Both the position numbers and the translations under genes were made by a program. Of a stretch of DNA of 64,000 bases, positions 13,448 to 64,000 are shown in pieces (the stretch's first letter is position 1; each line of letters opens with the position of its first letter). The stretch is from a virus. The stretch spans positions 1 to 64,000 of the IMG/VR virus record IMGVR_UViG_3300027763_000037; one strand, given 5' to 3'. Under the pieces are notes generated by a model. That model saw only the letters and a list, made by a program, of their open reading frames with translations. It was not told where the DNA came from and ran no database searches.

Positions 13448-13704
13448 AACTCTCCCCAACTCTTTTTATCTTTATGGTTATTAAATTCACGTGATATCTT
13501 ACCTTCTTCAAGGAATACTCCACCCCAAAGACCGTACTCTTTACCACCAATTCCTGCAGCAAAACATTCTCTCCTAACAGGACAAGCAAAGCATATTTTG
13601 TCTACTGCAGGTCTAAGAACAACATCCTCTTCATATTTGTCAAAGAATATGTTTGTATCATAATCAAGACATGCAGCATCATCTTTCCAATAAAACTTTG
13701 GCAT
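13423..13704 (-). CDS. whiB: WhiB-family iron-sulfur transcription factor
   Basis: The 93-aa protein has the four WhiB cysteines: AACLDYD near residue 12 and CFACPVRREC at residues 38-47, plus the beta-turn YGLWGGVFLEEG that contacts sigma factor in this family. WhiB proteins bind a 4Fe-4S cluster, join RNA polymerase via sigma and control transcription in response to redox state. They are restricted to actinobacteria and their phages, which makes this a strong host indicator. The C-terminal segment is short with few basic residues, so direct DNA binding may be weak. Confidence 0.93.
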   Translation of the reverse strand: MPKFYWKDDAACLDYDTNIFFDKYEEDVVLRPAVDKICFACPVRRECFAAGIGGKEYGLWGGVFLEEGKISREFNNHKDKKSWGELWAGLTTN

Positions 13705-58800: not shown

Positions 58801-61800
58801 CCTTAATTCCACCTTCAGCATCAATTGCTGCAAGTCGAACATTCTTAAGTCTTGTCATCAAGTCATCAATTGGGGTTGCTGCTCGTTCTGCTTTTTCTTT
58901 TAGTGGATCAACACCAGGAATTTTTGGACCAGCATTTGCTCCCTTAGCATTTCCTACGTTCCAGGCTTGTGCTGCTACGCCATAAGTTTTATTAATAAAT
59001 TCTCTTGGCATTCCTGCAGTGTTTATGCCTTTTGCAGCAAGATATGCATCAATAACATTTGAATCTCCAGAAGCAACAAAGTCCATCATCATAGTTGTTG
59101 TTATTTGTGTTCCATCTGCTCCAACAAGCATATTCCATTGAGCAAGAATATCTTTCATTGTTTGATCGCCTGCATCTGCTTTTTGCTGAACCTCAAGTTT
59201 TGTTAAAATTGTTTTTGGCTTTCCATTTGGACCAGTTATTTTATCAAGTGTCTTTTTAAATGCTGCAACTTTTTTAATTTTGTTGATACCATCAACGTTC
59301 ATATCAACAGTAGTTCCGTACTTAGCCTTCATGTTAGAAAGAATATTTATTGCTTCTGTATTTTCTTTAATATTTGCTTTATTTTCTGGAGCAGAAATGT
59401 ACGCAACAGTTGTTTCTATTGTCGTATCTGTTGCTCCACCCTTCATAAGCATTTGCATAACAACATTTGCTTCTGCTGAACTTCCAGTAACTCCAACCAA
59501 TAGTTCAAAATTTGTAACAAATGTTTCACTATTTTCAGCAAGATCAGCCAACCTTATAGCAACAAATGGATCTATAGATCCTGCTCCAAGTTCTAGTTGA
59601 AGAACACTCTTAAAGGTACTATCTTTCATTCCTTCAAGTCTTGTTACAGAGTTATCAGCAAAAGTTTTCATAGCACTTGAAGAGTCTTTATATCTTTCTC
59701 CAACAGAAACCTTTACTGCATCATTAAAAGCAGTTGCACCTATAACATCTTTTTGTGCAACAAGTGTTTCTAGATTTGTTTTATTTTGAGCAGTTAAAAG
59801 TGCAAGATCTCTTGCTCTATCTTTTTCAATGATTGCTCTTTCTTTATCTGTTTTTGCCATTGATAACTTAATATCGTATTGCTTATTAAGAGCATCAATA
59901 GAATTATTTCCACTTTCAAGATTTGCGATAGCCATTTGAACTGCTGCTGAATCTAGTTTTGCTTTTTCTTGGCTTGCTTTGTTTGCATCCCACATGCCTT
60001 TAGCAAAAAGTCCAATAGATGCTACTGCTAATCCCCAGCCGACTGGGTTCCAGATATTTGCTGCAGCAAGTGCTGCTATTGATGTTGCTGCGACAACTGG
60101 TGCTGCTTTTAGTGCATTATTTGATGATAACTTTTCAGCAGAAAATCCACCTTTTGTTGCAACTGCGTTATCAAATGCAACCTTTTGCTGATCCATTGCA
60201 TTTTGTTGCAACTTTGCAATTACTATAAGAGGATCTTTAAGCAAATCTTGACCATTAGGACCAAGTAGTTCTGAAAGTTCTCCAGTAATTACTGCTGGAA
60301 TTGTATAACTTCCCAACTGCTCTCCAAGTGCTGAAGCAATACTTCTTGCCTGATCCATAGTAATAACGCCTTGAGTTATTGCAACTCCAAGTTGTGTTGC
60401 TATATTTTTTCCTATATCTTGTTGAGATGATCCATTTTTTGCTTGAACATTAATGTCTTCTAGAAGTGCTTTTCCTGGTGCAGAGGTTAAGTAAGTTTGT
60501 CCAGACTTTCTTGTTTCTGCATCAACACCAGACGCCATGTCTGCTCTTCGTTTATTTGCAGACTCAGTAGCACTTACTGTTTTTGTTATTTTAGAAATTT
60601 CTATAAGTTTATCTGTTGTCATGGACATAGAGTTACCTAAAGCAACACCTTCTTTTCTTGCATTGTCCATAGATTTTTTATAAAGCCATACTGCTCCAAC
60701 AACTGCCGTTAGGGCTACTGCTGCAGCCTGCCAAGGATTCATAAGCATTGGAAGCATTCCTGCTACTGCAGAGGCTGCAAACAATCCTGTTGTAACTTTT
60801 GCGTCTGCTCCTCCCATCATCGCACCCATTGCTACAGCACCAAGAGCACCAGCAGCAGGTCCTGCAACTTTGCCAACTCTTTCTTGTCTTGCTGCTAGAT
60901 TTAATTTACGGGTTTGCTTATTCTCTGCCTTTTGCTTTCTTGCTGCTGCTTCTTCTTCACGCTGTTTAGTTAGTTCAGCACGACGCTCACGATCTGCCCT
61001 ATTTTTTTCTTCATTGGCTCGCATCTCTGCAGTTCTTGCTGCTTTTGCTTCTGCTGCTGCTTTGTCTTGTGCTGCTTTAAGACTTGCTGCTCTTGCTTTT
61101 TCTTGTAATTTTTCATGGTCACGAAGAGCCTGTGCTAACTGTGCTTCTGTTGCACCAGCCTTTTGTAGTGCAACTCTTTTTTCAATCCAAGTATCGCCCT
61201 TAGCCTTACCACGAACACGCATTGTTTGTCTTGGCATATCTTTTTTAGGAACAACTGTTGTCCCTGCTGGCTGCTTAATAACTCTTGTATCATCTGCTGT
61301 TCCTCCAACTCTTTTTACCGTACCAGTTTTTGCTTTTCCAGAAGTTGGTTTTATTTCTTTTATTTTACCAGTTTTATTATCTCGAAGTCCTTCTCCAGGA
61401 GTAGCAAGAATAAATTCACCAGTTCTTTTGTTTAAACGTAAATCAATAAGTTGCTTATATTTTTTTATGTCATCGTAAAAAGTCTTGCCTTTTCCAGTTC
61501 TTTCATCTAGAATAAACTTTGCTGCTTCGGCTGCATACTTTGTTTCTGGGTTGATCATTCCAGACAATCCTGGTGGTGCTTTTTTAGTTTCTAGAAGTGC
61601 ATGGGCTTTTAATTCTAACTCTGCTGCTTTAGAAACCAGCATTGCTTCTTGTGCTGTAACTGGATGTCTTCCAGTAGCAAGGAATCTTGCAGCAGCGTTA
61701 TACTCTCCACTATTTGTACCTAAAAGATTTCCATATTTCTTGTCCCAGGCTATTAAATTTGATGTTCTTTTTTCGGTTAAATAGTTGTTTACTGCACCTA

Positions 61801-64000
61801 AATCACCAAAAGCGTAACCCTTATTCCATTTCTCTGCAGCCCTTGCAATTGAACTTTGTCCCTTTTCTGCTTTTCCTGGTTCTACGTGTGCTGCTTCCAT
61901 TTGAACAAGTCTTGCTATTTTTCCAGAATCTAGGTTTGGATACTTCTCTTGCATATAAGCCTTTAACTTAGAAACTTCTCCTTGTGCTCCAAGGGCTTTG
62001 TTCTTTGCTTCTGTCTCTGCTAATACTGCCTTATACTCTTTGTACCCTTCAATATTATTAGATTTAAATCCACCAGCAGCCTTTGTTGGTCCACCAATTG
62101 TTAATCGCTCTTTTAATTTACTCCAGTTAGCAAACGATCCATCTGATACTCTCTTACCCTTTTGAGAATCAATATCAAAAAGATACCTCATACTTTGTTT
62201 TAGATGATCAACAGTTGCGCCTTTTTCTCCTTTACGACCAGTAAAGATTAGTCCATCTGGGCCTTGAACTGTTTGGGCTGCCAAGTTCTTAAGGAATAGT
62301 GGTTTCTTTTTTCTCCAGGCTTCTCTTGTTTTTTCTGTAATTTCTGGGCTACGAACAAGGTCGTCCATATATCTTTCAATGTCAACAACGTGTGGAGGCA
62401 TAGCCTTTGCTTGTGTTGGGCCATCTGGAATAACTCCAGCCATGCGACCACTTACCCAAAAATCTTGATTAGCGTGTCCTGACTGTCTCTTTTTTAATTG
62501 TTGCTCTTCAAACTTTTTAATAATCTGTGCTGCTGTTGCTTGCTTTGGTGTTGAAGGTTTGACTGCAGAATGAACTGCGTGATATTGTGACCAATCAACC
62601 TTTAGACCCTCTTCAAGTCTTTTGATCATTCCATTGTAGACAACTTTTTCATCTTTATTTAATGAGAACCCCTTTACGGTTTGTCTTAGTTTTGGAAGAA
62701 CTGTTTCAATCTCTTTTCGCATTGCAGTGTTATATTCTGCTGCGGTCATACCCTTTGGAATTGGTAATGTTGATTCAGCAAAGAACCTTCTTGCCCCACC
62801 CTTTTCTCCCAACAGATTAATATTGGCCATCTTTTCCATTGAAAGCATATCTTTTGGTTTTGCATAATCTCTTAAACCAGAAGCCATCTTAAATACTCCA
62901 GCAGTTCCTACATCTGCAAGTTTGTTACCAGATAGGTTTCCTCCGTGTAAATCTTTGTCTCCTCTTAGATTTGCTGCTACTAACTGTTTAAAATATTCAT
63001 CCTTGCTAAACTTACCACCCATATTCTTTTCAGCAAATTTAGGATCAAATGGGGATTCAAGAACAATAATTTTTCTTTTTCCAGAAGGATCTAAGGGATC
63101 ACGCATTGTTCTGACAGTTTGTACTGGTGTATCAAGACCGTGTGCTTGTCTTGCTATTATGGTTGCTCTTTGTTCTGCAAGGGCAGCCTTTTCGTCCATC
63201 ATTGGTTTTACAAATACTTTATCTCCATTTGGCTTTTGATACATACCGCCAATACCAGGAACTGGGAAACTTCTTCCAGATGAGTCTGCAATTTTTCTAC
63301 CAAAGTCAGTTGGGGCCATTGATCCAAATCTACTATTTTTTGCTGCTTCTGCAACTTGCTTTAGTGTTAACTCTTGCTGCATTCTCTTTGTTACTGCATC
63401 AAAAGACTTTGGCATTCCTAAAAATAGTGGTTGAGAAGAAGATTGAGATTTTCTATATGCATCAATTTGTGGTTTAATCCAAGGGTACCTTGCTAAATTT
63501 CTTTCATGTTGTGCTTGGCGTCTTGCATCTTGTGCTTTTCTCAGTGACTCTAGTTGAGGAGATAGCGGTTTTACTTGAGGCCCTAGTTTTGCTGCTGGCA
63601 ACTTTCCAGCCATATGTCCTGGAACACTATCGGTAAATATTGCCTTAAGAAGTCCATGATGCTTTTCAGTTAACTTTGCTGGAATAACTGCTTCACCTGG
63701 AGCAAGCATTGCTGGTTGAATATCTCCAGCACCCTTTGGTCCTGGAACTGTTAGAACTCCGTCTTTATACTTTCTTATTTTTAGTCCAGCCTTGGCTGCA
63801 TTTGCTCCTGCTTTGCCACCTGTAAAAAGTCCAGGGCTTGATGCTGCAAGAGTTCTTGCTTGGGATGCTGCTGTCTGATAAGCCCTTCCAAGTGATTCTA
63901 CAGATGCTCTTTCTACTCCAAATACCTGAATAAGTTTTTGGTGAGCACCGTGAAGTGCGTTAGACTGTACTGTATTTTCAAGTTGATCTTGAGTTAAATA
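55838..64000 (-). CDS. Tape measure protein (partial) with kinase-like segment
   Basis: The frame stays open to the window edge, so at least 2720 residues are encoded and the start is outside. The in-frame Met at 63709 is internal. Central features: a GPAAGALGAVAMGAMMG and VALTAVVGAVWLYKKS membrane-like pair near 60.7-60.9 kb, long helical and coiled-coil regions at 57-58 kb, a PTPTPTDTPTPQPGKAW linker, and the tape measure motif TDTVPAMLTPGEFVMSKYAV near 56.05 kb. A related motif, IQPAMLAPGEAVIPAK, is near 63.7 kb. Between 63.26 and 62.8 kb lies a kinase-like segment (see findings). The length sets the tail length, consistent with a long-tailed siphovirus. Confidence 0.93.
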   Translation of the reverse strand, partial: YLTQDQLENTVQSNALHGAHQKLIQVFGVERASVESLGRAYQTAASQARTLAASSPGLFTGGKAGANAAKAGLKIRKYKDGVLTVPGPKGAGDIQPAMLAPGEAVIPAKLTEKHHGLLKAIFTDSVPGHMAGKLPAAKLGPQVKPLSPQLESLRKAQDARRQAQHERNLARYPWIKPQIDAYRKSQSSSQPLFLGMPKSFDAVTKRMQQELTLKQVAEAAKNSRFGSMAPTDFGRKIADSSGRSFPVPGIGGMYQKPNGDKVFVKPMMDEKAALAEQRATIIARQAHGLDTPVQTVRTMRDPLDPSGKRKIIVLESPFDPKFAEKNMGGKFSKDEYFKQLVAANLRGDKDLHGGNLSGNKLADVGTAGVFKMASGLRDYAKPKDMLSMEKMANINLLGEKGGARRFFAESTLPIPKGMTAAEYNTAMRKEIETVLPKLRQTVKGFSLNKDEKVVYNGMIKRLEEGLKVDWSQYHAVHSAVKPSTPKQATAAQIIKKFEEQQLKKRQSGHANQDFWVSGRMAGVIPDGPTQAKAMPPHVVDIERYMDDLVRSPEITEKTREAWRKKKPLFLKNLAAQTVQGPDGLIFTGRKGEKGATVDHLKQSMRYLFDIDSQKGKRVSDGSFANWSKLKERLTIGGPTKAAGGFKSNNIEGYKEYKAVLAETEAKNKALGAQGEVSKLKAYMQEKYPNLDSGKIARLVQMEAAHVEPGKAEKGQSSIARAAEKWNKGYAFGDLGAVNNYLTEKRTSNLIAWDKKYGNLLGTNSGEYNAAARFLATGRHPVTAQEAMLVSKAAELELKAHALLETKKAPPGLSGMINPETKYAAEAAKFILDERTGKGKTFYDDIKKYKQLIDLRLNKRTGEFILATPGEGLRDNKTGKIKEIKPTSGKAKTGTVKRVGGTADDTRVIKQPAGTTVVPKKDMPRQTMRVRGKAKGDTWIEKRVALQKAGATEAQLAQALRDHEKLQEKARAASLKAAQDKAAAEAKAARTAEMRANEEKNRADRERRAELTKQREEEAAARKQKAENKQTRKLNLAARQERVGKVAGPAAGALGAVAMGAMMGGADAKVTTGLFAASAVAGMLPMLMNPWQAAAVALTAVVGAVWLYKKSMDNARKEGVALGNSMSMTTDKLIEISKITKTVSATESANKRRADMASGVDAETRKSGQTYLTSAPGKALLEDINVQAKNGSSQQDIGKNIATQLGVAITQGVITMDQARSIASALGEQLGSYTIPAVITGELSELLGPNGQDLLKDPLIVIAKLQQNAMDQQKVAFDNAVATKGGFSAEKLSSNNALKAAPVVAATSIAALAAANIWNPVGWGLAVASIGLFAKGMWDANKASQEKAKLDSAAVQMAIANLESGNNSIDALNKQYDIKLSMAKTDKERAIIEKDRARDLALLTAQNKTNLETLVAQKDVIGATAFNDAVKVSVGERYKDSSSAMKTFADNSVTRLEGMKDSTFKSVLQLELGAGSIDPFVAIRLADLAENSETFVTNFELLVGVTGSSAEANVVMQMLMKGGATDTTIETTVAYISAPENKANIKENTEAINILSNMKAKYGTTVDMNVDGINKIKKVAAFKKTLDKITGPNGKPKTILTKLEVQQKADAGDQTMKDILAQWNMLVGADGTQITTTMMMDFVASGDSNVIDAYLAAKGINTAGMPREFINKTYGVAAQAWNVGNAKGANAGPKIPGVDPLKEKAERAATPIDDLMTRLKNVRLAAIDAEGGIKALFKAVSGGQIGNKFNGIQQQLMGMKSGKPTQATDPTKGYNGQFIDWFTGLDKTEQAKYGKVATKKVKSGKNKGRVIDPNDPKGKKLLKDGAKVGDLVLNKAGKEVAAGFNKAIIGDFNVAQIQTIRNFDQQSIVMKKLAALGMTNTQIQRVLSDEAYTTAIATGQITDEELKINNALAVQADTRDKINNIVSQGARARQENADMARRQELQAFLASSGLSRGISEGAMTDALGDPEQLSTLLAAMDAVKNKTAGANASLQDVVDSLNEIKKNSDIKVNITKTVSEIIMGGASAAQEALGIKSRLRSRMTGSELGAYVSEKGTRPDGTTYGGENVGAKAIANVAAKMIDPATKKAYTSESLTKLLGNKTQASVGKERSLVASQMNVANANMAQIQTKFDNISKSMNDAVDAVNKEYDDKEKDVQDRINKLQKDADKSISDKEDQIKKDFDDPIKKYQDQSNVLSHDLSLIDKAAEDINKKYDLQAEALQNVLSINERISREQQQQLGLADALSSGDISAAAAAVQDIRSANAADFGNAQMDGLNQSRENDVNALTNKDGKTRSQILEEQYVISEQIYALENNPQRLILEQAIAKEKLDLENGLAKLRKEQDDLEPARQAAIAAAKLAKEAELKAVQAEMDAQQAIVTALAEQDASLAIQEAALIAINAELDDVETFAGLTADDWERIQLAAEATAEAMEKRMKDAIAAIAESTAKGAKSMADILRDINLLPSSKTIEIFTKEYKTVYVNTVATTTTVTAPTPTPTDTPTPQPGKAWISDGKGGWKKPTKPVGDYGWSDTNGWVKGYAGEDTNGSTDSAAEANMRANAVAATSAANAEAAANALAAAQADYDALMAGVARLRADGDNGLANAAMNRITAKYPKGRPVKLSSGGFIDVARFLNGGFSVGTDTVPAMLTPGEFVMSKYAVDSYGVDRMKAINNGDSIGDSVYNYSINVNVKSDSNPDEIAKTVIAQIKGIDAQKIRGNRL

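Follow-up and report, generated by a model that had tools for sequence, protein, structure and literature searches.

Does the tape-measure protein of a siphophage carry a kinase, and if so, where would that enzyme act? The question is raised by a 64,000-nucleotide stretch of viral DNA (positions 1 to 64,000 of IMG/VR record IMGVR_UViG_3300027763_000037; hereafter the window), near whose end a sequence-only reading had noticed a series of kinase-like motifs inside a long reading frame. We find that all of the motif strings do sit in one uninterrupted minus-strand frame, and that this frame can be labeled a tape-measure protein by its gene order and N-terminal body. Our overall explanation, to which we assign a probability of about 0.5, is that an atypical protein-kinase-like phosphotransferase resides in the tape-measure protein, is ejected with the DNA, and acts in the host early in infection.

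The region of interest was first delimited by its predicted structure. An AlphaFold2 model of a 300-residue domain, built from 85 aligned sequences, reached a predicted local distance difference test score (pLDDT) of 93.7 and a predicted template modeling score (pTM) of 0.90, its confident part starting at about residue 11. In an earlier model of 450 residues, built with 44 dereplicated relatives, approximately residues 20 to 300 were confident and the remainder mostly was not.

62546 to 63445, minus strand: kinase-like domain of 300 residues (residue 1 is codon 63443–63445), from the AlphaFold2 model and its VIA-align superposition on solved kinases
62567 to 62839, minus strand: C-lobe helices, residues 203–293, modeled with pLDDT mostly above 90

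The elements of the 300-residue model follow one another in the order beta1, beta2, beta3, alphaC, beta4, beta5, alphaE, catalytic loop, and C-lobe helices. They form a five-stranded N-lobe with alphaC and a helical C-lobe, which is the bilobal architecture that the motifs had suggested. The kinase-like region lies where it had been proposed to lie, although the modeled domain is slightly larger than the span originally noted.

When the model was compared with solved structures by VIA-align, the highest score belonged to the Bacillus cereus kinase CotH (PDB 5jd9, also 5jda; Z 11.8, root-mean-square deviation (rmsd) 4.2, 219 aligned residues), which is a cellular protein with only 8% identity to the domain and whose Pfam family is matched in sequence by none of 44 members. 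Tied with it was Helicobacter pylori CtkA (3akk, Z 11.1, rmsd 4.5, 210 aligned; 3akl, Z 10.8), likewise a compact two-lobed kinase, but 13–14% identical and a stand-alone cellular protein rather than part of a virion protein. Other kinases matched at Z values of 9–10, among them PI4KIIalpha (4hnd, Z 9.8, rmsd 4.7, 209 aligned), MavQ (7m7a, Z 9.8, rmsd 4.1, 209 aligned), Golgi casein kinase (4kqb, Z 9.8, rmsd 3.9, 201 aligned), and HipA (4pu5, Z 9.2, rmsd 6.5, 207 aligned). The HipA/HipT toxin kinases (4pu5, 7ab5, and others) resemble the domain at Z 8–9, but the virus record contains no match to the Pfam family HipA_C, and an antitoxin partner was not seen, although no search was aimed at one. 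Note that a best Z of 7–8 is typical for models lacking a clear match, a level that the top rows exceed and that rows near 8 alone do not. The great majority of the best 50 rows are named kinase or HipA; the few named otherwise include LepB and inhibitor or promoter complexes, and LepB is itself counted among kinases (PMC9758233; this and the other PMC articles cited here were available in part, and statements drawn from them refer to those parts). The best solved matches are therefore found among CotH, CtkA, PI4K, HipA, and Fam20-type kinases, in line with what the sequence-only reading had anticipated. We consider it nearly certain that the domain has a kinase fold. This assignment is based on the model and the VIA-align superpositions because sequence profiles and Foldseek searches of the PDB were uninformative.

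A Foldseek search of viral protein models yielded six matches at E values of 0.001 or less, with lengths of 955–1340 residues, of which two are annotated as ADP-ribosyltransferase, one as portal, and one comes from an archaeal virus. With the 450-residue model, a phage protein annotated with a PI3/4-kinase domain was also retrieved. The proteins A0A6J5MJB0, A0A6B9L6W7, and A0A6J5S481 resemble the window's protein in being large and having a kinase-like part (E value of 5e-4 or less), but they are annotated with portal, ADP-ribosyltransferase, and PI3/4-kinase domain (one each) rather than as tape measures, and share 12–17% identity.

Conservation of the active site was assessed in an alignment of 122 rows, comprising the window and 121 distinct relatives (median pairwise identity 53%, minimum 32%). 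The relatives are those remaining from 147 unique profile matches after 26 at 2 bits or less were dropped, and they include locus L006, which is equal to the window over the domain. Residues G67, K80, P81, Q154, R161, D163, D165, N170, D178, and G180 are invariant in all rows. The individual elements are located as follows.

63236 to 63298, minus strand: beta1-turn-beta2 with glycine-rich turn G64-x-G66-G67 (model strands 50–54 and 67–70; G67 in 122 of 122 rows, G66 in 118, G64 in 116)
63233 to 63256, minus strand: GIGGMYQK string, read in frame
63206 to 63208, minus strand: beta3 lysine K80 of VFVKP, in 122 of 122 rows
63206 to 63217, minus strand: VFVK string, read in frame
63146 to 63193, minus strand: alphaC helix of the model, residues 85–100, with E91 at 63173–63175 (Glu in 120 of 122 rows, Gln in 2)
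63173 to 63193, minus strand: EKAALAE string, read in frame
63053 to 63058, minus strand: hinge E130-S131 at the end of beta5, each kept in 119 of 122 rows
63053 to 63073, minus strand: KIIVLES string, read in frame
62936 to 62965, minus strand: catalytic loop R161–N170, R-x-D-x-D-L-x-x-x-N (R161, D163, D165, and N170 in 122 of 122 rows; 167–169 vary)
62936 to 62953, minus strand: DLHGGN string, read in frame
62906 to 62914, minus strand: DFG-like D178-x-G180, both in 122 of 122 rows
62897 to 62917, minus strand: ADVGTAG string, read in frame

Most of the assignments made from the motifs are borne out by the homologs: the glycine-rich strand, the beta3 lysine of VFVK, the alphaC glutamate in the acidic helix, the hinge-like KIIVLES, the asparagine of HGGN, and the DFG-like metal-binding aspartate. 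What did not hold was the proposal of an atypical, ABC1-type HxGN loop. In HGGN, the H and both Gs are unconserved (H occupies position 167 in 6 of 122 rows, and the three letters preceding N are nearly free), and only the D and N of D-x4-N are kept. The observed signature is R-x-D-[KRS]-D-[LV]-x-x-x-N followed by DxG, and D-x4-N followed by DxG is typical of ordinary protein kinases and HipA. The spacing from N170 to D178 is 8 residues, while the equivalent Asn-Asp spacing in protein kinase A (PKA) is 13.

For the domain, comparison with its three closest relatives gave ratios of nonsynonymous to synonymous substitution rates (dN/dS) of 0.04, 0.23, and 0.19; L006 stood in for the window. The median over 6151 pairs, many of them near saturation, was 0.29 after dropping pairs whose proportion of synonymous differences (pS) fell outside 0.05 < pS < 0.7. 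The domain is under purifying selection. These ratios and the kept residues speak for a working enzyme rather than decay, and we consider the domain probably to be an active phosphotransferase. A pseudokinase was rejected because the catalytic positions are invariant across the alignment, and for the same reason a degenerate copy, which the sequence-only reading had offered as an alternative, is unlikely.

How widely the domain occurs was examined by six scans of IMG/VR, which returned 16, 172, 18, 203, 3, and 373 stretches encoding relatives (overlapping sets). At most 80 loci of each scan were examined further, the context of copies from the last two scans stands outside the counts given here, and the database scans may omit records very near the window's own. 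No relatives were found in 50,697 isolate phage records, where searching with a divergent member produced nothing above chance level (E value 9), and none were found in 72,556 plasmids or in prokaryote genome contigs from 84,980 species (one genome per species) by scans that rely on short exact peptide patterns. The 121 unique copies lie in closed frames in 82 cases (shortest 1790 residues) and in frames cut by the end of a stretch in 39. Among the latter are the short frames of L096 (893 residues) and L056 (389 residues); L056 has a tape-measure body just upstream in another frame, and is a broken or misassembled copy rather than a stand-alone gene. No stand-alone kinase gene was seen among the 121 copies. 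When 16 virus records were searched whole, 11 had exactly one copy, in a long frame. In the copies read, the domain occurs nowhere but in the tape-measure frame.

Within the protein, the domain occupies a slot behind the N-terminal body, and a motif precedes that slot.

63677 to 63709, minus strand: MLAPGEAVIPA motif where the N-terminal body ends, ahead of the kinase slot; similar PGE motifs precede other sequences in kinase-less relatives

For 40 dereplicated frames from a set of 58 complete ones (2499–4268 residues), mean column identity is 0.45–0.76 in the N-terminal body (residues 1–720), 0.17–0.38 in the linker (721–840), 0.57–0.70 in the kinase region (841–1080), and 0.01–0.39 thereafter. 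The kinase region thus matches the body in conservation, unlike the linker and most of what follows. The kinase starts at residues 715–796, 973–1082, or 1209–1367 in 111 frames with a complete N terminus, and therefore other material precedes it in some lineages. The most hydrophobic stretch (residues 535–582) precedes the kinase in five frames examined and is also present in the kinase-less frame of L182.

A scan with the N-terminal body yielded 447 loci. Seventy-nine of these were newly fetched, some being the same contigs as L001–L006, and proved to have the kinase in 34 cases and to lack it in 39, with 6 undecidable; the 39 include cut frames of at least 1500 residues and L159, whose frame closes at 723 residues, before the slot. 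Near-copies aside, bodies with and without the kinase are alike 66–75% identical to that of the window. On a tree of 48 bodies (32 with the kinase and 16 without), the kinase label has to change only once (support 93), with the kinase-less rows on one side of a single branch. The tree kept 48 of 111 usable rows, fetched partly via kinase queries, and the proportion of kinase bearers on it should not be taken as a frequency. The long branches L071, L020, and L093 were flagged and L071 meets L022/L037, leaving nearby placements unsure; the root is for drawing only. The kinase is thus stably inherited, with one loss, replacement, or gain. A freely swapped cassette was rejected because one change suffices, and spread between unrelated tape-measure proteins was rejected because 6105 of 6105 N-terminal pairs align over at least 15% of the shorter part.

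Other sequences fill the interval between the PGE motif and an SPSK motif in the 11 kinase-less rows examined. At 12 loci (L155, L156, L174, L175, and L178–L185), the slot holds a domain with a dRgH motif and no kinase (tape-measure residues ~820–1063). Among 9 unique members, R and H are conserved at 95% or more, and the motif recalls the DRGH motif of EndA-type nucleases (PMC11126660). The idea that this domain simply replaces the kinase did not fully hold: 12 of 14 loci fit, but in L093 and L094 the match is partial and lies behind a kinase. Further kinds of slot sequence occur in L142, L143, L160, L161, L164, L167, L172, and L177, several with an '-AH-' or '-SH-/-GH-' motif, and these eight loci possibly carry more enzyme-like cargo. 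Separately, a second conserved stretch with an AAHVEPG motif lies behind the kinase (~61445–62164, minus strand; residues ~1221–1460) and has relatives at 44 loci, of which 38 also carry the kinase.

The tape-measure label of the frame follows from its gene order and from the identity of its N-terminal body to annotated Streptomyces phage proteins.

55838 to 64000, minus strand: part of the tape-measure frame in the window (open frame, gene order, and N-terminal body like that of Streptomyces phage tape-measure proteins)

The whole frame comprises 3328 codons, and its earliest start codon lies at about base 65821 of the record, which is 111,921 bases long; the G+C content is 36%. Upstream are genes for portal, maturation protease, major capsid, and Ig-domain/major tail proteins, and downstream are a 220-residue gene and a 1437-residue minor tail gene. 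As in Streptomyces phages, the frame is the largest between the major tail/chaperone genes and the minor tail genes. A search with the first 1273 residues of the protein hit 520 of the 50,697 records of isolate phages; the 20 hits listed carry a tape-measure annotation, come from Streptomyces phages, and share 27–30% identity with the N-terminal body. Three of these records, all Stanwilliamsviridae, were examined. Searches of Pfam and PHROGs found no tape-measure profile matching the window's frame; among the 44 members, tape-measure PHROGs match only single ones, and a Pfam search that covered 10 of 12 tape-measure stretches of 990 residues gave only subthreshold matches. Two frames between the major tail and tape-measure genes (L085:3851–4942, minus strand, record bases 65851–66942) occupy the position of the tail assembly chaperones of Streptomyces phages. 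The following gene bears on the host.

13510 to 13689, minus strand: WhiB-family gene, E value 3.4e-12, over the Pfam cut-off

This family was found in one of 14 control genomes, that of Corynebacterium glutamicum, and the gene fits an actinobacterial host for the virus.

How might such a domain be used? We propose that a phosphotransferase domain, built in behind the conserved N-terminal body of the tape-measure protein, would bind adenosine triphosphate (ATP) and Mg2+ and transfer phosphate. It would probably travel strung out in the tail tube, which by our estimate would hardly have room for three folded 30-kDa domains abreast, and would leave with the tape-measure protein during DNA ejection. 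The domain would then refold at or inside the membrane of the actinobacterial host, where, just as infection begins, it could phosphorylate a protein or lipid of the host. Delivery of the kinase into the host is plausible, and there are precedents. The tape-measure protein pb2 of phage T5 is trimeric, carries an enzyme domain, and is expelled from the tail at infection, although its domain is muralytic (PMC10038345). Tme of a Streptomyces injection system is a tape-measure relative from an actinobacterium with an enzyme domain as cargo, but the enzyme is an endonuclease and the system is the cell's own rather than a phage (PMC11126660). In mycobacteriophage Douge, the tape-measure protein is trimeric and has been proposed to make a channel in the envelope (PMC13033339). 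Polyvalent/MuF-type phage kinases are also kinase-like domains in proteins that the phage is proposed to carry into the host. However, they are reported to have lost the whole C-terminal subdomain and to have a Gln in the last N-lobe strand (PMC5512222), whereas the window's domain has a Glu there and its C-lobe helices (residues 203–293) are confidently modeled.

Enzymes in tape-measure proteins are known, and they are mainly cell-wall hydrolases. Among the papers listed by searches of the open-licence PMC literature, a body of text that excludes preprints and most subscription journals, we found none that describes a kinase domain within a tape-measure protein. In the available parts of PMC8876498, PMC6102473, PMC3853054, PMC7824862, and PMC10684548, kinase and tape measure are mentioned only apart, and 'tape measure' does not occur in that of PMC5512222. 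Thus, phage-protein kinases proposed to enter the host and enzymes in tape-measure proteins are already known, but a kinase in a tape-measure protein seems, within this literature, to be new.

Several results weigh against our explanation. Foldseek gave no PDB match at an E value of 0.001 or less (best 6.3e-3, with poor superpositions) in a search made with the 450-residue model only. Neither the frame nor the domain matched a kinase profile in Pfam or PHROGs, and no kinase family is among the 17 Pfam families matched by the 44 members at E values up to 5. In direct comparisons with PDB sequences, the best match of the domain was a non-kinase (E value 0.077) and its profile matched none. Five of the 16 virus records searched whole have no copy of the domain, showing that phages can do without it. 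Finally, the stable inheritance seen in the tree of 48 bodies would fit a role in assembly equally well.

The last point leads to the best-surviving alternative, in which an active kinase works in the producing cell during assembly, on the tape-measure protein, tail chaperones, or baseplate parts; for instance, it might time chaperone release or tube growth. The same fold and residues, the constant location in one protein, and its stable inheritance speak for it, and ATP is certainly at hand in the producing cell. However, tape-measure bodies without the domain occur in relatives (one clade), whose N-terminal bodies are as similar to the window's as those of kinase bearers, and in three Streptomyces phages, so tail building as such does not require the kinase. 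We regard an assembly role as possible but rather unlikely, and lean slightly toward action in the newly infected host.

It is less probable still that the domain catalyzes another reaction, such as transfer of adenosine monophosphate (AMP) or glutamate, or acts on a small molecule. SelO and SidJ are kinase-like folds that transfer AMP or glutamate. Such activities are documented for kinase-like folds (PMC6858067), a SidJ structure ranks second in the Foldseek search of the PDB with the 450-residue model, and the gap between N170 and D178 is short relative to PKA. Against this, none of the residues that ordinary phosphotransfer requires has been lost; SidJ is outside the best 50 VIA-align rows, which excludes nothing. 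A catalytically dead or purely structural domain, serving the tail as a spacer or as a module for binding, would suit a structural protein, but we judge it very improbable given that K, D, N, D, and G are invariant over 122 rows at identities down to 32% while the loops between them are free to vary. That there is no kinase fold at all and the short motifs agree by chance is scarcely credible: it is favored only by the failure of sequence profiles to recognize the domain, and it conflicts with the high-confidence model, the kinase-dominated list of structural matches, and the invariance of the catalytic residues while the letters before N vary.

Returning to delivery with the DNA, a broader and more tentative proposal is that a large group of actinobacterial siphophages may use the tape measure as a delivery chassis, with a slot behind the conserved N-terminal body that holds an active kinase in many lineages and other enzyme-like domains, one of them bearing the dRgH motif, in relatives, the kinase entering with the DNA and phosphorylating a host target before phage genes are expressed. 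If true, a conserved, complete-looking kinase in a tape measure would mean that siphophages can bring a signaling enzyme in with the tail, and host modification could begin ahead of phage transcription. Because the domain is compact and offers obvious catalytic mutants, the question of tape-measure cargo is directly testable. Many related viruses also keep the domain, a hint that such viruses may carry a kinase into the host alongside their DNA.

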